This document shows, one piece after another, positions 10,528 through 17,526 of a DNA stretch of 24,808 nt. Below the pieces are notes generated by a model, which was not told the origin of the DNA, made no database searches, and saw nothing but the letters and a program-made list of their open reading frames with translations. Source of the stretch: a virus; IMG/VR virus record IMGVR_UViG_3300032144_000195, positions 1 through 24,808 of that record. One strand, given 5' to 3'. The translations under genes and the position numbers were made by a program. Each line of letters begins with the position of its first letter. The stretch's first letter is position 1.

Positions 10528-12963
10528 ATGACACTACGACCATATCAACAAAAATTATCGGATGATATATGCGAGGCTAGGGAGCGCGGCGGTCGATCCA
10601 TTCTTGCAACGATGGCCACCGGGGGCGGTAAAAGTGTGATGACTGCTCATCGTGCTCGTTTATGCCGTGGTGCGTCGGTGATCATGGCTCATCGTCAGGA
10701 ACTGGTTTATCAGCTCAGCATGGCGTTGGCACGCGATGAGATAGATCATCGTATCATGGCCCCGGATGCGGTTGTAAAATTTATAATTGAAAAACAGATA
10801 GCGGAATTCAACCGCAATTATGTTTATGAGCGTGCGCAACATACGGTGGCATCGGTCGATACGCTGCTCGCGCGGGCCGATAAATTGGATAATTGGCCAC
10901 GACAAGTTGAGCTCGTGCAGATCGATGAATGTTTTCCGAATGGAACATTGATTCGTACTCCTGATGGTGACGCACCGATTGAAAAACTTATGATCGGAGA
11001 TGTTGTAATCAGTGGCTCGTTTGTTCCACGTCGTGTGACAGCGATCATGCGTAACCCAATGCCTGATAAAATGGTGAATATTCGCTGGACGCATCATTCA
11101 TTAAATTGTACTACGCATCATCCCATCTGGACAAAGAACGGATGGGTTAATGCAGTAGATTTAAGGGAAGGTGATTATGTCCTGTGTCATTTGCGGGAAC
11201 CCAACACAAGGGGTTCGAAAGACATGCTCTCAAGCATGTCGCAACAAAGTATCATCGCAAACGATGAGTCGAACCAATCTAAAGTATTGCTCGGAACGAA
11301 TGAAAACAAACAATCCGATGATGAAAGAAACATCACGGGAAAAAATGCGAGCAACACACAAGCGTATAGGTCATCAACCAAAGGTGAAAGGCGGAAACGG
11401 TCGCGAGCCGACCAAACCAGAGATGACGTTAAAATTCCTGTTTGGAATGAAACTGAATCATACGGTCACAACTGGCGTCCGCAAGGGATCGATTTACCCG
11501 TACCATTACAAACTGGACCTGGCGCTTCCGGAATTAAAACTGGCGTTGGAAGCGGACGGTTCAAGTCATTCGACACTGAAACGAAAGGAACAAGACCGAC
11601 GCAAGGACGAATTTCTGAATGGGTTAGGGTGGACCGTGTTGAGGTTTACCAATCAACAAATTATGAACGATCTGCACACGGTATTTCAGACGGTTTCGTC
11701 TACAATATCGAGGTTGAAACAGATCACACCTACATAGCTTCCGGGATAGTTGTTCACAATTGTCATCACGTGCTTGGTGGCGACCACATCAACAAGTGGG
11801 GCCGGGCATTCAATATCTTCCCCCAAGCGTTACGGATCGGGTGGACCGGCACCGGCATGAGGCCGGACCGCAAGCCGCTGCGATCGGCATTTGACAGTTT
11901 GGTGGTGGGTCCGACAACCGCCGATCTGCTCGCGCTCGGCGCTTTGTGCCCCTATCGTGTCTATGGGCCGCCGTCGTCCATCGATGTGGCCGGGCTCGCG
12001 GTCGGCGGCTCGGGGGATTACAGCGGGGCCGAGCTGCGCAAGCGCGCCCACAAGTCCACCGTCACCGGCGATATGGTGCAGCATTATCTCAAGCTGACAC
12101 CGGGGGCGGTCGGCATCGCGTTCCTGGTGGATGTCGAGCAGGCCAAGGAAACCGCCGAGCGATTCAACGCCGCGGGTGTGCCGGCCGCGTGGATGTCGAG
12201 CCGTGAGACGGATGACCGTACCCGCGTCCGCACCATGGAAGCCCTGCGCAACGGCGCGATCAAGCTGATTTGCAACGTCGATCTGCTCGGTGAGGGTGTG
12301 GACGTGCCCCGCGTCGAGGTGGTGCTCGACGGCCGCCCCACCATGTCGCTGGTGCGGTATCTTCAAGTTTTCGGCCGGCTGTTGCGCACCTACCCCGGCA
12401 AGCGGGAGGGTGTGTTTATCGATCTGGTCGGCAACGTTGTGCGCCACGGGCTGCCCGATACCCCGCGCACCTGGTCACTCGACGTGCCCGAGAAGCGTAA
12501 GCGCACCGAGAATGACGAGACCGCGCTCAAGGCGTGCCCGCAGTGCTTCCAGGTGTTTGAGCGGTTCCGCGCGTGCTGTCCGCATTGCGGTTTCAAGCCC
12601 ACCCCGGCCGGCCGCTCACGGCCCGAGGAAGTAGATGGCGACCTCACCGAGTTCTCCGAGGAACTGCTGGCGCGATTGCGCGGGCAGGCCGCTGAGATCA
12701 TGGGACCATGCCCGCCCGGTGTTGCGCCGTATGTGGTGCAGAACTGGAACGCGCGGGCCGTGACACAGCAGCAGTTACGCGACGCGATGGCGACATGGCA
12801 GGGTGTGCAGGAAACGCAGCACGGCCACGATATGGCGACGGGCTACCGGCTGTTTTATCACCGGTTCGGCATCGATGCGGCCACAGCACAGACACTCGGG
12901 CGGAAACAGGCGGCGGATTTATACGAGAGGGTATGGGAGAATATAAACCATGAAACCAGGTGA
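10528..12963 (+). CDS. SF2 DExH helicase, interrupted by an intein
   Basis: An 811-residue precursor; removing the 277-residue intein leaves a 534-residue helicase. Motif I is TGGGKS (31-36). Motif II is cut by the intein: IDE ends at residue 134 and CHH starts at 412, so splicing restores IDECHHV. Motif III-like GWTGTG follows, then motif VI QVFGRLLR (613-620). A C-terminal Cys cluster (CPQCFQVF...CCPHCG, about 670-690) probably binds zinc. The order resembles phage UvsW/T5 D10-type and SNF2-like helicases used in recombination, repair or origin melting. It starts the rightward operon with the VRR-NUC nuclease and primase. N-extein codons are AT-richer than the C-extein. Confidence 0.88.
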   Translation: MTLRPYQQKLSDDICEARERGGRSILATMATGGGKSVMTAHRARLCRGASVIMAHRQELVYQLSMALARDEIDHRIMAPDAVVKFIIEKQIAEFNRNYVYERAQHTVASVDTLLARADKLDNWPRQVELVQIDECFPNGTLIRTPDGDAPIEKLMIGDVVISGSFVPRRVTAIMRNPMPDKMVNIRWTHHSLNCTTHHPIWTKNGWVNAVDLREGDYVLCHLREPNTRGSKDMLSSMSQQSIIANDESNQSKVLLGTNENKQSDDERNITGKNASNTQAYRSSTKGERRKRSRADQTRDDVKIPVWNETESYGHNWRPQGIDLPVPLQTGPGASGIKTGVGSGRFKSFDTETKGTRPTQGRISEWVRVDRVEVYQSTNYERSAHGISDGFVYNIEVETDHTYIASGIVVHNCHHVLGGDHINKWGRAFNIFPQALRIGWTGTGMRPDRKPLRSAFDSLVVGPTTADLLALGALCPYRVYGPPSSIDVAGLAVGGSGDYSGAELRKRAHKSTVTGDMVQHYLKLTPGAVGIAFLVDVEQAKETAERFNAAGVPAAWMSSRETDDRTRVRTMEALRNGAIKLICNVDLLGEGVDVPRVEVVLDGRPTMSLVRYLQVFGRLLRTYPGKREGVFIDLVGNVVRHGLPDTPRTWSLDVPEKRKRTENDETALKACPQCFQVFERFRACCPHCGFKPTPAGRSRPEEVDGDLTEFSEELLARLRGQAAEIMGPCPPGVAPYVVQNWNARAVTQQQLRDAMATWQGVQETQHGHDMATGYRLFYHRFGIDAATAQTLGRKQAADLYERVWENINHETR
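11162..11176 (+). promoter_or_regulatory. Internal ribosome-binding site of the nested endonuclease
   Basis: TAAGGGAAGGTGATT lies immediately before ATG 11177. AGGTGAT matches the 3' end complement of 16S rRNA in register, placing AGG 5 bases from the ATG, the ideal spacing. The same bases encode the conserved REGDY of the intein N-terminal splicing domain, so they serve two purposes. Confidence 0.7.
11177..11737 (+). CDS. Vsr/DUF559-like homing endonuclease nested out of frame in the intein
   Basis: A 186-residue protein in the +1 frame relative to the helicase/intein. N-terminus: zinc finger CVICGNPTQGVRKTCSQAC (C3, C6, C17, C21). Then RMKTNNPM and KVKGGNGREP, segments typical of the DNA-binding part of phage/intron homing nucleases. 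C-terminus: Vsr-like fold, YKLDLALPELKLALEADGSS, followed by H, DRRKDEFL, and GWTVLRFTNQQ. This fits the EDxHD/DUF559 endonucleases known from fractured genes with split inteins and from group I introns. ATG 11177 is preferred over a GTG 6 bases upstream because of the Shine-Dalgarno. It would cut intein-free helicase alleles and drive spread of the intein. No in-frame nuclease exists in the intein. Confidence 0.85.
   Translation: MSCVICGNPTQGVRKTCSQACRNKVSSQTMSRTNLKYCSERMKTNNPMMKETSREKMRATHKRIGHQPKVKGGNGREPTKPEMTLKFLFGMKLNHTVTTGVRKGSIYPYHYKLDLALPELKLALEADGSSHSTLKRKEQDRRKDEFLNGLGWTVLRFTNQQIMNDLHTVFQTVSSTISRLKQITPT
11221..11240 (+). repeat. Perfect hairpin inside the nested endonuclease
   Basis: GACATGCT (11221-11228) and AGCATGTC (11233-11240) form an 8-bp perfect stem with a CTCA loop, 44 bases past the endonuclease ATG, within the codons of its zinc-finger Cys residues. 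It may be chance or may affect translation of either frame. Confidence 0.35.
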
Positions 12964-13156
12964 CCGTGTGCGGCTGAGCCGCGCCACCAATAATACCGTG
13001 GGGCGTGCCGAGCGGTTTTTTACGCGGATGGGGACCGTGCAGGCCGTTAAGCGGCGTGTGGGGCGCGGTGCGGTGCGGGTGCTATGGGACGGCTGCAAGC
13101 ACCCTGAGTTTTTGCATGTGCGACTGTTGGAGGTGAGTGATGAAAACCGAAACTGA
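12950..13156 (+). CDS. KOW/SH3-like small basic protein
   Basis: A 68-residue protein. The beginning MKPGDRVRLSRATNNTVGRA and later MGTVQAVKRRVGRGAVRVLWDG read as a small beta-barrel of KOW/SH3 type, a fold that often binds nucleic acid. It overlaps the helicase end by 14 bases, and the end of the gene overlaps the nuclease start by 17 bases. The family is inferred from the GDRV...GTV...RVLWDG pattern. Confidence 0.7.
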   Translation: MKPGDRVRLSRATNNTVGRAERFFTRMGTVQAVKRRVGRGAVRVLWDGCKHPEFLHVRLLEVSDENRN

Positions 13157-13520
13157 TGTGCAAAACCTCACACGCCTTGCGGTGCAGGCGGCCGGCGGGG
13201 TGGCGTGGCGCAACAATCGCGGGGCGCTGCCGGATGAGCGCGGTATCCCCGTGCGCTTTGGGCTGGCCAATGATAGCAGCCAGCTGGACCGCACATTTAA
13301 AACTGGCGATCTGGTGGGAATGACGCCGGGCGGCCTATTCCTCATGCTGGAGTGCAAGGCACCCGGCTGGAAATGGCGCGGCACCGACCGTGAGGTGGCG
13401 CAGTGGAACGCTATCAAATATGTGCGGGAGCGCGGGGGCCGGGCGGGGTTTGTGACGCATCCTGATGAGGCTGTGGCCGTGATGTTGGGTACGTCGGGGG
13501 GAGCGTATAGCGGTGGGTAA
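13140..13520 (+). CDS. VRR-NUC nuclease
   Basis: A 126-residue protein with the VRR-NUC layout: an N-terminal helix (ETDVQNLTRLAVQAAGG), WRNNRGAL, then GDLVGMTPGG (catalytic Asp) and FLMLECKAPG (E-x-K), followed by AQWNAIKYVRERGGRAGFV. VRR-NUC proteins are PD-(D/E)XK nucleases that cut branched or junction DNA, and in phages they stand next to SNF2/DExH helicases as here. The ATG at 13140 has GGAGGTGA upstream. It probably acts with the helicase on replication or packaging intermediates. Confidence 0.85.
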   Translation: MKTETDVQNLTRLAVQAAGGVAWRNNRGALPDERGIPVRFGLANDSSQLDRTFKTGDLVGMTPGGLFLMLECKAPGWKWRGTDREVAQWNAIKYVRERGGRAGFVTHPDEAVAVMLGTSGGAYSGG

Positions 13521-13779
13521 GCGGCTGGATACCAATATGCGGCGAACGGTGCTGCTGCGGGGGGCCATGCGTGTTGCGATGGATGAGGGATTCGCGGCCC
13601 TGACGCATGCGCGGGTGGCTGCTGTGTGCGGGTGCAGCTCTCGGACCGTTTACCGGTGGTCGAGGTCGCGCAAGGTGTTGTGGGAGAAAGTGGCAGGATA
13701 CGCCAGAGTTACGGGGTGCCCAGGCGTTACGCAGGAATATGAAAATTTGATGGGCGAACGCGCGCCCGCTGATGCATGA
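13513..13779 (+). CDS. TetR-type HTH protein lacking a ligand domain
   Basis: An 88-residue protein. Residues about 10-56 match a TetR N-terminal DNA-binding domain: MRRTVLLRGAMRVAMDEGFA, ALTHARVAAVCGCS (helices 2-3), then RTVYRWSRSRKVLW, the recognition-helix region. The ~120-residue ligand-binding half of TetR is absent. The GTG at 13513 overlaps the nuclease stop; ATG 13537 is an alternative. It could be a phage regulator or a small DNA-binding replication accessory. Confidence 0.65.
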   Translation: MGKRLDTNMRRTVLLRGAMRVAMDEGFAALTHARVAAVCGCSSRTVYRWSRSRKVLWEKVAGYARVTGCPGVTQEYENLMGERAPADA

Positions 13780-13874: not shown

Positions 13875-16154
13875 GTGACAAAGAAGTGGGAATTTATGAG
13901 CAACCGGCCTGCTATGCCCGCAGGGCTGCCCGCATGCAAACAATACATCAATTTCAAACTAGTTCCAAGAGCTCGCGGCGGAACCGATAAATTCCCCCTT
14001 GATCAGGCCGGCAATGTTATCGATGCGCACGACCCAAATATGTGGGTTGATGCGGCCACAGCGTGGGCGTCACCGTGGAACAGGCACGGTATCGGGTTTG
14101 TTGGCACACCCGGATGGATTCTTATCGACCTCGACAAGGCGCTGCGTGACGGCGTGTGGTCGCCATTGGTGGCCGAGCTGCGCACGAAACTATGGGGTGC
14201 ATATGCCGATGTGAGCCCGAGCGGCACCGGTTACCATCTGATCATGCGCGGCACGCTGCCGGATGGGCACAAGTGCAAAATGGAATGGGGCGAAATCTAC
14301 AGCCTCGGTCGGTTCCTCACGATCACCGGCAATCATGCATCAGGGGACGCTAATTGGGACGCCAGCGACCACACTGAGTGGCTGGTCGAGCGGCTCGGCT
14401 TGCGCGGTGAGCCGCTGCCCGCGCTGCCCGATGAGGGTCGCAGCGAGCTATGGCGCGGCCCCGAGGATGATGATGCGCTGCTGGCCATCATGCTGCGCCA
14501 GGGGGCGCATACGCCGGACCAAATGTTTGCCGGGCATGCCACCGCGCGGCAGGTGTGGGAGATGGACGCGGAGGCGCTGGCGCGATCGTGGCCGGCGGAT
14601 AACCGGTCGGATGGCCTGGCGTTCGATCACAGCAGCGTGGACATGGCTGTGATGTCGCATCTGTCGTGGCTTACCGGCCGTGACATCGAGCGCATGCAGC
14701 GGCTGTTCGAGCGCTGGCCTGGCTATCGGGCGTGGAAATATCAGCGATCGCGCGGCTATCACATGTGCCGGATACTCGCTCGCGGCACGACCAACAAACA
14801 TGTGCTGGGTGAACGCACCACGGCGCTGGTGGGGCGTGAGGCTGCGCAAGACGGTGATGTGGTGGCCGAACCCGGCATGTTTCTCGCGTATATGCCGAAC
14901 CGTACGTTTTTCCATCGCCCGACGCGCAAGTTTTGGCCGGTCGGCAGTGTGGATGATTTGATTGGTTCGATCGCGTTACCGGATGGCAAAACGATGAAGG
15001 CGAGTAAATGGCTTGCGCGCAATCACCGGATTGACCAGCTTGCATGGTGGCCGGGCGCGGGTGAGATTATTGAGGGATGGTCACTCGTTGAAGGTGGCTG
15101 GACCGAATCACGCAATAACCGTGTTCTCAACACCTATTTGCCACCCGTGCCACCGCAGCCTCGGCCCGGCGTTACCTCCGACCCATGGATAAATCATCTA
15201 CGCATAATATATCCGCAGCATGTCGAGGTCATTCTTGATTGGATGGCATTCGTTGCCCAAAATCCCACGGTTAAAATAAACTGGTGTTTGGTGTGGGGTG
15301 GTTCACAAGGCATCGGCAAAGATAGTATGTTTGCGCCGCTTAATTGGGCGGTCGGTGAATGGAACTGGCGGTCGGTTTCACCCGAGCAAATCATGGGTGA
15401 GGTTTATAACGATTACCTTGAATGTCGTGTTCTTATCATTGATGAAGCCAAGGACATCGGTGGAGAAAACCGTTATCAATTTTATGACAAAACCAAAACG
15501 ATAATTACAGCGCCACCAAACTTCCACAATATCAGATCGATGTATGCGGATCGGCGCAAATCCCCCAATCTTAACGCAACGATCATTACCACAAATTATA
15601 GAACGGGCGGCTTATATCTTCCGGCTGATGATCGACGGCATTATGTGATGTTTAGCGATCTCACGCGAGCAGCGTTTAGTGAAGCGTATTGGTCCGCATA
15701 TTGGGAATGGATGAATAACGGCGGTGCGGATGCATGTGCCGCGTTTTTATTGGCGCGTGATGTGAGCCGTTTCAACCCCAAGGCACCACCCACACAGACA
15801 CCGGAATTTTGGGATATGGTTGAGGGTGGTCAACCGTCTGAACAAACAGACCTTAGCGATTTGGTCAGAGGGTTAGACGGATTTATTTTATCGTCATTGG
15901 CTGGCCGGGCAATGATGGGTGCCGGTGATCGCTCATTATACGATTGGTTGTCTGATAAAAAGAACGGCACCAAGATCATGCGAGCTCTCAATGATGCCGG
16001 TTATATTTTAGTAAAGAATCCTAATGAACAGCGAGATGGTCGATGGAAAATAAACGGTAAGTTTGAAAAGATATATGTTCGTCAAAATTATACCCTTGAT
16101 GACCGTATGAAGGTGGTTGATACCATAAAAAGTGGTAGGTTACCCCCTAAATAG
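13875..16154 (+). CDS. Primase-polymerase/D5-type helicase fusion
   Basis: A 759-residue protein. The N-terminal half is an archaeo-eukaryotic primase/PrimPol domain: WILIDLDKAL (catalytic D85 and D87), SPSGTGYH (114-121), then EIYSLGRFLTITGNH. The C-terminal half is a superfamily 3/DUF5906-like helicase: GGSQGIGKDS (Walker A, about 475-484), RVLIIDEAKD (Walker B, about 518-527) and TTNY as a possible sensor. It primes and unwinds DNA at the fork for the family B polymerase. Starts: GTG 13875 (GAGGG upstream) or ATG 13896 (MSNRPAMPAG); either is possible. GC content falls sharply in the helicase half. The origin-like repeat region follows directly. Confidence 0.87.
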   Translation: MTKKWEFMSNRPAMPAGLPACKQYINFKLVPRARGGTDKFPLDQAGNVIDAHDPNMWVDAATAWASPWNRHGIGFVGTPGWILIDLDKALRDGVWSPLVAELRTKLWGAYADVSPSGTGYHLIMRGTLPDGHKCKMEWGEIYSLGRFLTITGNHASGDANWDASDHTEWLVERLGLRGEPLPALPDEGRSELWRGPEDDDALLAIMLRQGAHTPDQMFAGHATARQVWEMDAEALARSWPADNRSDGLAFDHSSVDMAVMSHLSWLTGRDIERMQRLFERWPGYRAWKYQRSRGYHMCRILARGTTNKHVLGERTTALVGREAAQDGDVVAEPGMFLAYMPNRTFFHRPTRKFWPVGSVDDLIGSIALPDGKTMKASKWLARNHRIDQLAWWPGAGEIIEGWSLVEGGWTESRNNRVLNTYLPPVPPQPRPGVTSDPWINHLRIIYPQHVEVILDWMAFVAQNPTVKINWCLVWGGSQGIGKDSMFAPLNWAVGEWNWRSVSPEQIMGEVYNDYLECRVLIIDEAKDIGGENRYQFYDKTKTIITAPPNFHNIRSMYADRRKSPNLNATIITTNYRTGGLYLPADDRRHYVMFSDLTRAAFSEAYWSAYWEWMNNGGADACAAFLLARDVSRFNPKAPPTQTPEFWDMVEGGQPSEQTDLSDLVRGLDGFILSSLAGRAMMGAGDRSLYDWLSDKKNGTKIMRALNDAGYILVKNPNEQRDGRWKINGKFEKIYVRQNYTLDDRMKVVDTIKSGRLPPK

Positions 16155-16375
16155 TGGTAGGATAAATATACCTACCACCACCCCAAAAACCCTTGTATTT
16201 CCTTACTTTTTATACTCTTTTGGTGGTAGGGTGGTAGGGTGGTAGGGGGTAGGTGTTATGAGAGAAATTATTATAATATAAGGGGATGCTTATATTATAA
16301 ATATATAAATTATAAAGGCGGGATGCGCGCGCGTGGTAACATGCCAGATACCTACCACCCTACCACCCTACCACC
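16132..16375. repeat. Candidate replication origin: GTGGTAGG iterons and AT-rich core
   Basis: The octamer GTGGTAGG occurs five times on the plus strand (16132, 16154, and tandemly at 16223, 16231, 16239) and four times inverted as CCTACCAC (16171, and tandemly at 16351, 16359, 16367). The tandem blocks 16222-16246 and 16351-16375 are a perfect 25-bp inverted repeat. Between them lies an AT-rich stretch (about 16255-16318) like a DNA-unwinding element. The region follows the primase-helicase gene and precedes packaging genes. No U-tract follows the stems, so it is not a simple terminator. Origin function is inferred. Confidence 0.65.
16255..16318. other. AT-rich core between inverted iteron blocks
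   Basis: About 64 bases dominated by A and T (TTATTATAATATAAG, then TATATTATAAATATATAAAT), by far the most AT-rich segment of the window. It has no reading frame. Position between the iteron arms suggests easy melting, as in DNA-unwinding elements, or promoter activity. Confidence 0.55.
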
Positions 16376-16405
16376 GGCAGCAGTGTGGACGAAAGAAAGG
16401 ACGGA

Positions 16406-16681
16406 ATGATGAATGATTATGAATTTGGAGAGATAGAGAAAGGTGTTGTTGCGTTAGCCAACGAACTTGAAAAATATAGCTATGTTAGATTTTCATGGAA
16501 TATATCGACATATAAGGAATTGAAATGGGTGCAACATCATCCCGTTCAATACGGGATTGAGTGTGCAATCAAACGCATTGGCATAATGCTAAAGAAAAAA
16601 GAGCGCGATAAAATTTTACGAAGCGTTGATATAAAGCCTGAGACCGCTATCCGTATCGCTCGGCTATGGAGATCGCGATAA
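16406..16681 (+). CDS. 91-residue helical protein of unknown function
   Basis: It starts MMNDYEFGEIEKGVVALANE at ATG 16406, with AAGGACGGA just upstream; a GTG 21 bases earlier lacks one. It is AT-rich compared with downstream genes, helical and basic in its second half (ECAIKRIGIMLKKKERDKIL). First gene after the candidate origin. The stop overlaps the next ATG (TAATG). Confidence 0.6.
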   Translation: MMNDYEFGEIEKGVVALANELEKYSYVRFSWNISTYKELKWVQHHPVQYGIECAIKRIGIMLKKKERDKILRSVDIKPETAIRIARLWRSR

Positions 16682-17214
16682 TGCCCCGCAAACCTAAAGC
16701 CACTGTGGACGCATCAAAAGATGACGCTTTAGCCGACAAAGGCCCAAAGCCCAAACGCAACGCTAAGGGCCAATTAATGGAGCGTCCCCCATGGTCGCCT
16801 ATGCGTCCTGGTGTGAGCGGCAATCCATCTGGCCGCCCGCGCTCAACGATTGAGATGAAGCAACAGGCCGCCGCGGCTACCGATAGCGCCATCAAGCTGC
16901 AACGGATGGTTACCGAGTTGCAGCTAAAATTGGCCGAGGCTCATATGGAACGCGCGAGTGATCCGCGCCTCACGCCCGACCAGCGGCTTGAGGCGATCAC
17001 GGCGGCCATGAAGTCGATCGACAGCACGGGGCTGGCGGCGGCGCAGGGGCTGCTCGACCGGGGGCACGGCAAGCCACAGCAACGTGTGGAAGTGGACAGC
17101 GCCGGCGCGCTTGGGGACATGGATGACGATGAGCTCGCGGTATTTATCGGTACAGTGGGCCCTCAGGTCGTCGGATTAATTCAGGCCCGGCGCAAAAAAC
17201 TTATTGACGGCTGA
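16681..17214 (+). CDS. DUF5681-like protein, candidate small terminase subunit
   Basis: A 177-residue protein. The basic N-terminus contains MRPGVSGNPSGRPRS (about residues 41-55), the DUF5681 signature, often found near terminase genes. A long helix (TDSAIKLQRMVTELQLKLAE) and helical repeats follow, ending with an acidic patch DMDDDELAVF and KKLIDG. The ATG at 16681 with GGAGA upstream is preferred over a start 15 bases earlier. Small terminases recognise the packaging site; position upstream of the large terminase fits, but five small genes intervene. Confidence 0.6.
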   Translation: MPRKPKATVDASKDDALADKGPKPKRNAKGQLMERPPWSPMRPGVSGNPSGRPRSTIEMKQQAAAATDSAIKLQRMVTELQLKLAEAHMERASDPRLTPDQRLEAITAAMKSIDSTGLAAAQGLLDRGHGKPQQRVEVDSAGALGDMDDDELAVFIGTVGPQVVGLIQARRKKLIDG

Positions 17215-17280
17215 TGAGGTTTGCATCATATTGATGACACAGAGACGGCAGGGGCCGCTCAGTTGATGGGAGATACCACG

Positions 17281-17526
17281 ATGCTTAAGAACAGCGAAAT
17301 GAAGGTCAAGCGTTATATCAGCCTGCCGGCCATTGATCGCAAGGTTTCACTTGGTGCTTATGTTGCCTATGTGAAGCTGGCGAAAGCCAATCCAGAACGT
17401 GAGTTTAAACACGGATTGAATTGTTGGTGGCAATGCCTAGGCCGTGAAGTTATCGAACAATTTCGTGAAGGTATGAACGAACGTATTAACGCGGGTATAC
17501 CTGCAATCAATCGCGGTGTGACATGA
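17281..17526 (+). CDS. Conserved small phage protein of the packaging region
   Basis: An 81-residue protein from ATG 17281 (GGGAGA upstream); longer forms are open but lack a ribosome-binding site. The segments KVKRYISLPAIDRKVSLGAY, EFKHGLNCWWQCLGREV and FREGMNERINAGIP resemble a small protein I recall as common near phage terminases, with no known function. The stop overlaps the next ATG (ATGA). Confidence 0.65.
   Translation: MLKNSEMKVKRYISLPAIDRKVSLGAYVAYVKLAKANPEREFKHGLNCWWQCLGREVIEQFREGMNERINAGIPAINRGVT

Follow-up and report, generated by a model that had tools for sequence, protein, structure and literature searches.

The locus analysed here raises the question of what is done by a dense array of short repeats at the end of a viral primase gene, and by which protein the repeats are read. 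The window was the whole of IMG/VR virus record IMGVR_UViG_3300032144_000195 (24,808 bases), which is classed as linear and is possibly a fragment. The published layout used for comparison was that of the origins of phage-inducible chromosomal islands (PICIs), in which two opposed sets of iterons surround an AT-rich region that follows the gene for the initiator directly; gene and origin together maintain a plasmid, and the organisation is said in that paper to be shared by no other known replicon (PMC6092414). Feature coordinates are collected in Table 1.

Table 1. Features of the replication module and repeat array (positions are those of the window)
Feature	Position	Strand	Basis or remark
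Endonuclease-like gene (phrog_93), same module as the primase gene	13137-13520	+	Gene order as in related phages
Small HTH/TetR_N-like gene, same module; rival binder of the iterons	13513-13779	+	Domain match
NrS-1-type primase-polymerase/helicase gene (759 aa), proposed initiator	13875-16154	+	
Winged-helix-like C-terminal domain (residues 677-736), proposed iteron reader	15903-16082	+	Predicted helices, then strands
GTGGTAGG copies	16132+, 16154+, 16171-, 16223+, 16231+, 16239+, 16351-, 16359-, 16367-		5 direct, 4 inverted
Three single GTGGTAGG copies (16132+, 16154+, 16171-)	16132-16178	.	Exact match
Left arm: three tandem iterons, 8-nt spacing (16223, 16231, 16239)	16222-16246	+	
AT-rich core, proposed unwinding element	16256-16315	.	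85% AT
Right arm: three tandem inverted iterons (16351, 16359, 16367)	16351-16375	-	Perfect inverted repeat of left arm

Exact matching located nine copies of GTGGTAGG in the 24.8-kb record, all nine inside a 243-base array (16132-16374), which agrees with the number and orientations given in a preliminary description of this DNA. A tenth copy, GGGGTAGG at 16246+, follows the left arm and differs from GTGGTAGG at one position. The 25-bp perfect inverted repeat with a 104-base spacer reported in that description was recovered as well, the two 25-nt arms being 100% complementary. The real maximum was nine copies of an 8-mer per 244 nt, against no more than three non-overlapping copies in 100 first-order shuffles of the window, so that the clustering is far beyond chance. 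The widest start-to-start gap between iterons is 112 nt. The spacer had been called extremely AT-rich, and this holds for its core, which is the most AT-rich 60-mer of the window (best elsewhere, 77%), but not for the whole spacer (64% AT, versus 41% for the window) or for positions 16316-16350 (just 37%). The first copy falls within the 3' end of the primase reading frame, the second starts at the last base of the stop codon, and the last lies at +220 from it. The array thus stands immediately 3' of the initiator gene and comprises two opposed iteron sets around an AT-rich region, as PICI origins do. When the window was scanned in tiles with a strict two-sided test (two opposed groups, each with two or more copies of the same 7-mer, separated by 50-160 nt), positives were obtained solely in tiles over 16.2 kb. 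Every GTGGTAGG iteron opens with GTGG; at 11 per 264 nt, however, the array is not exceptionally dense in GTGG/GTGA, for which the window has a mean of 5.8 and a maximum of 14. Cumulative GC skew, which had been suggested as a check, was computed and has no turn at 16.2 kb, a result that says little on a possible fragment and neither supports nor refutes an origin.

The genes of the record include a DNA polymerase (phrog_1252), an exonuclease (phrog_69), a helicase, the endonuclease-like protein, the primase, a Gp2.5-like single-stranded DNA-binding protein, a portal protein and the large terminase subunit. PICI satellites are defined as being without phage structural genes, and given the portal, terminase and replication genes the record is therefore a phage and not a satellite. 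The phage helicase gene (10528-12963, +) contains an intein-like interruption with Hint_2 and Intein_splicing matches at residues 135-411. Nested within that stretch in another frame is an ORF of 188 aa (11171-11737, +) with a DUF559 nuclease-like domain (E 2e-13), perhaps an out-of-frame homing endonuclease encoded within the intein.

The neighbouring gene had been named as a primase or initiator in the preliminary description, and this identification was borne out and refined, the array lying directly 3' of a gene of the NrS-1 type. Its product matches NrS-1 primase chains (E ~1e-15) and also phage primase families; DUF5906, the SF3-type helicase half, was matched above its cut-off, and the HBD family just below (E 4.7e-06, 26.8 bits, cut-off 27.9). 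An AlphaFold model built from 58 sequences had a mean pLDDT of 77.9 and a pTM of 0.44. The N-terminal half of this model matches NrS-1 crystal structure 7rr3 (E 3.3e-14) and the C-terminal half the fold of the NrS-1 CTR, 6k9c (E 7.5e-13), followed in the ranking by MPXV E5 and ASFV PrimPol; the PriRep1-dsDNA structure was a further fold match, at rank 42. With PrimPol, HBD and DUF5906 parts all found, the predicted protein matches an NrS-1-type PrimPol-helicase. The Pfam families specific to the head and tail of the NrS-1 protein are present in NrS-1 and absent from the record's primase at E 0.001, so the latter is a relative of the kind and not a close one. A single-protein scan for close relatives of the primase gave no match, nor did a search of phages and plasmids with 127 aa near its C-terminus. 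For residues 677-736, pLDDT in the full model was 54-69 over the first helices and 82-88 from residue 701. The domain was also modelled on its own; Foldseek returned no significant match for it, and VIA-align gave low Z scores, the best (5.1) being an extended winged helix. A winged-helix fold is, on this modelling, probable.

Relatives from the record's own primase branch were gathered with a seven-sequence search, which returned 80 viral loci, 79 of them with a stop codon. In 13 of the 79, some 7-mer has five or more copies between -150 and +600 relative to the stop, and seven loci were viewed (L378, L365, L431, L418, L441, L384 and L390), among which L378 (CATAGGG) and L431 (ATGCACGG) have short iterons. 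At L441:5320-5450, a 21-base unit in six tandem copies runs across the stop codon of an NrS-1-type primase gene. The strict test was positive in one of 77 long-enough viral contigs (L378) and in 1 of 1540 shuffles. L365, the nearest relative detected and 35% identical over its best segment, has no array 3' of its primase gene, and none was found in six named relatives picked from the search matches, Milano, BUCT_49532, Scuro, B2, PEi21 and RHph_Y60 (0/6). Since the array is absent from most of the branch, including L365 and these six phages, it is no fixed companion of this primase branch; absence of the repeats from close relatives, which had been named in advance as evidence against an origin, was thus seen in part.

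The same relatives bear on a regulatory reading, in which the array is an operator for a small HTH protein, such as that encoded at 13513-13779, controlling replication or late genes, and is not an origin. Such a gene does lie in the same module of the record, and small HTH proteins had been named, beside the primase-helicase, as candidate binders of the octamer. Milano, BUCT_49532, Scuro and B2 carry an HTH or TetR-like gene just before the related primase gene and have no array, which disfavours the operator; nor would an operator need the strongest AT-rich stretch of the record between opposed arms. This reading is regarded as very improbable, and the iterons are likely, on sequence comparison, to be bound by the C-terminal domain of the primase-helicase itself and not by the small HTH protein.

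A comparable array was found in phage NrS-1 itself. In its record AB746912.1, all 11 genomic copies of GTTACACTT lie within 17062-17377, in both orientations and directly 3' of the polymerase gene (14895-17051), and the array includes an inverted repeat of 14 nt with 104 nt between its arms. A deposited gene, NRS1_29 (17055-17456; NrS-1 is L532 in the present set), covers the array and is probably no real gene. The recognition sequence of the NrS-1 enzyme is given as TTTGGTTA (PMC8718748), and two copies of the 8-nt recognition sequence, one per strand, were proposed as the origin (PMC7102993), against which one exact TTTGGTTA was found here in AB746912.1, at 17198 on the minus strand within the array. 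The enzyme starts primers just upstream of GTGG on the strand that bears it, GTGG being the stronger start motif (PMC8718748). The main texts of both papers contain no word starting with 'repeat' (PMC7102993, PMC8718748).

A piece of the NrS-1 primase matched 423 phage records, from which 60 were taken at even steps; 14 of these 60 were hand-picked for variety. The 14, together with NrS-1 and the six named relatives listed above, gave 21 phages, in which five or more copies of a 7-mer were required between -100 and +600 relative to the stop, a count reached by at most 2 of 200 shuffles. Seven were positive (PS6, Halfdan, nyashin_LB6, JNU_P9, phi105, CP-T1 and NrS-1), although CP-T1 is not considered to have the layout because four of its five copies lie at least 420 bases away; phiEG37K (3/200 shuffles) and B025 (7/200) just failed, with opposed repeats visible by eye. 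The strict test was positive in 4/21 (PS6, nyashin_LB6, phi105 and NrS-1) and in 0/420 shuffles. The two-sided layout is common to several isolated phages, including phi105. Pfam family Pox_D5 was matched near the C-terminus in four of eight array-bearing proteins scanned (B025, JNU_P9, phiEG37K and, just under the cut-off, phi105) and in 0/10 proteins without the layout, L365 included, in a scan that left out Scuro, B2, PEi21 and RHph_Y60.

Scans were also run from the motif itself. Three copies of TGGTAGG were found at no fewer than 119 loci (81 of the matches listed were in ORFs) and three copies of the reversed control, GGATGGT, at no fewer than 120 (89 of the matches listed in ORFs). Outside ORFs and with an inverted copy within 400 bp, the matches listed comprised 7 for TGGTAGG versus 6 for the control, and the motif itself is therefore unenriched. 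Primase-helicase genes adjoin the TGGTAGG arrays of L007, L008 and L188, and L005 has polymerase/primase-like genes on one side; no Pfam match was obtained for two ORFs of L191 or for one of L144, and L237 was left out. Control arrays lie beside a primase-helicase in 5/5 loci scanned (L245, L248, L259, L294 and L342, with L334 left out), and GGTAGG is thus one of many words; its candidacy as a universal origin word was rejected on this ground. The GGATGGT arrays with opposed copies at L259:2280-2470, L245:8917-8952 and L248:3684-3710 each stand 3' of a primase-helicase that belongs to a third helicase type, Toprim plus AAA_25, and that at L294:9360-9520 adjoins an AT-rich run 3' of a D5_N/DUF5906 helicase.

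In one of four contigs found with GGTGGTAGGGTGGTAGG, L007, a VapE/PriCT-2 protein adjoins the array. Its relatives comprised 6 genome and 80 viral loci (86), from which three were removed for missing or cut ends and two for protein length, leaving a set of 81 that was not deduplicated. A search of 15 long records detected Terminase_6N in eight (seven above cut-off), so at least those resemble phages. An array was scored where five or more copies of a 7-mer fell between -100 and +600 relative to the stop and at most 1 of 100 shuffles reached the same. Arrays were present 3' of the VapE gene at 48/81 loci, compared with 0/81 inside the gene, 2/78 at +600 to +1300 and 12/73 in the 700 bases 5' of it; eight of the ten 5'-side positives listed (12 in all) belong to one group, L519-L527, with a ACCCTTGC repeat. 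Loci of this group have no 3' array and carry 7-8 copies of a ACCCTTGC-like repeat in those 700 bases, and their origin may have moved to the 5' side. The strict two-sided layout was found at 25/81 loci, in 0/1620 shuffles and in 0/81 gene interiors. Among the 48 array-bearing loci, the first iteron copy falls in the interval from -79 to +93 around the stop in 47, the widest start-to-start gap is 92-120 nt in 39, and that gap is more AT-rich than the locus in 47. The word itself varies (CTATTAA, CTACTAC, GGTAGTA, GGTTGTA, GGTTACA, TGTAACA, GTGGTAA, GGTGGTA and AAAGGGT).

Covariation between word and protein was computed on 46 of the 48 loci, L450 and L493 being excluded because their repeats are placed unlike the others; 28 of the 46 are less than 95% identical. 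Similarity of iteron profiles followed identity in VapE residues 631-727 with the rest of the protein allowed for (partial r 0.26, reached in 1 of 2000 permutations), and the four other segments gave 404, 265, 175 and 61 of 500 permutations. At redundancy cuts of 95, 85, 75 and 65% (n = 28, 21, 18 and 15), the C-terminal segment gave 1, 4, 27 and 59 of 1000 permutations, residues 661-705, a post hoc choice, gave 0, 0, 5 and 4, and the middle segment 301-630 gave 36, 118, 383 and 475, the first of these values being a weak signal. For the VapE family, this pattern supports the C-terminal domain as the part that reads the iteron. Because no homology between the C-terminal domain of the VapE family and that of the record was detected with hhalign, it is by inference that C-terminal reading is carried over to the record. 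Tracking of the VapE-family repeat with the helicase C-terminus also speaks against a packaging site of the pac or cos kind, whose repeats would bind the small terminase subunit. The large terminase gene does lie ~3 kb downstream in the record, and terminase genes stand close behind the arrays of NrS-1 and PS6, but no terminase is annotated within ~2 kb 3' of the primase gene in the array-bearing phages phi105, B025, JNU_P9, Halfdan and phiEG37K, and a packaging function is held to be very improbable.

Two readings in which DNA structure matters more than the word were weighed against the same relatives. The strand bearing the array folds much better than shuffles (z -7.66), and pRN1 requires a stem-loop of ~100 nt 3' of its PrimPol gene (PMC4234260); by analogy, the PrimPol-helicase of the record would need the hairpin formed by the 25-bp inverted repeat and not the octamer. 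The stem of the record is, however, built of iterons, further copies lie outside it, and the longest exact inverted repeat is just 8-20 nt in 28 VapE and eight named array-bearing relatives, which makes such an origin improbable. The other reading takes the G-rich strand as the working part, and G-quadruplex-like folding had been offered as an addition in the preliminary description. The left arm does have runs of 2-5 G, yet relatives with the same layout use words without G-runs in the same place (CTATTAA, CTACTAC, AGTAACA and GTTACACTT); folding of this kind is unneeded, the addition is not supported by the sequences, and the element is extremely improbable as the functional unit.

The earlier proposal that the array is the origin of the phage draws good support from comparison, both with relatives and with published origins that are laid out alike, with the reservation that the closest relative found has no array. 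It is considered probable from these comparisons that the origin is of the PICI build and is bound, melted, loaded with helicase rings and primed by the NrS-1-type primase-helicase. The winged-helix-like domain at the C-terminus of the primase-helicase would bind the octamers, and the two opposed iteron sets would load helicase rings at the arms. The rings would melt the AT-rich core and then travel apart, and the PrimPol and HBD domains would make the initial primers. For this phage, all of these steps, from binding through loading and melting to priming, are proposed by analogy. If primers start just upstream of GTGG, synthesis would proceed leftward from the left arm and rightward from the right arm, which would be the geometry of two divergent leading strands.

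An extension of this scheme, in which the helicase lands on the iteron and the primer is then templated by that word too, is tentative and rather unlikely. The in vitro start site published for NrS-1 lies within its array, and all iterons of the window start with GTGG. One polypeptide would read the word twice: the C-terminal domain would read the octamer as duplex and open the core, and the HBD would then read the single-stranded template. DNA would be started outward from both arms, whose opposition would set divergent leading-strand primers and make the origin self-sufficient.

Under the preferred reading of the array as a replication origin, PICI-style origins appear, on sequence comparison, to extend to phages with NrS-1-type and VapE primase-helicases, contrary to the uniqueness stated for them (PMC6092414). 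A design described as unique to phage satellites would thereby extend to phages whose primase-helicases are of two or more kinds. For NrS-1, the source of the model enzyme in work on primer-free DNA synthesis, the array offers an origin of which no description was found in two papers on that enzyme (PMC7102993, PMC8718748). Among the open-licence papers listed in literature searches, none described iteron arrays in NrS-1 or VapE phages by title or abstract, and those listed for the letters of the octamer showed nothing relevant at that level. The arrays may supply naturally occurring pairs of DNA word and protein domain from which to learn how the specificity of origins changes, together with a simple means of finding origins in unstudied phages.

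Among known systems, phage P4, with its alpha protein and ori/crr, combines primase, helicase and origin-binding functions in one protein that uses short iterons, as is proposed for the record, and differs in primase type, iteron and placement. NrS-1 shares with the record the protein family, the fold in both halves and an iteron array directly 3' of the gene; it differs in its iteron, GTTACACTT, and in that the published origin proposal is based on the 8-nt priming site and not on the array (PMC7102993, PMC8718748). In pRN1, an essential inverted-repeat element likewise lies just 3' of the gene for the PrimPol-helicase ORF904, but no iterons are reported and it is the stem-loop that counts (PMC4234260). 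In SCCmec, the isolated C-terminal domain of the helicase Cch2 binds its own repeats just downstream of its gene and CCPol-MP begins primers at them, which resembles the scheme proposed here, whereas primase-polymerase and helicase are separate proteins and only three short iterons are present (PMC7581432). The closest correspondence in layout is with the rep-ori of PICI and SaPI, where opposed iteron sets and an AT-rich region stand immediately 3' of the initiator gene, the C-terminal domain of SaPI Rep acts on the origin directly downstream of its own gene, the iterons vary by element, and the helicase is self-loading with a C-terminal DNA reader, which is counted as a likeness (PMC6092414, PMC7581432). 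These elements are satellites without structural genes, whereas the record is a phage with terminase, portal and its own DNA polymerase, in which an NrS-1-type PrimPol is fused to the helicase.
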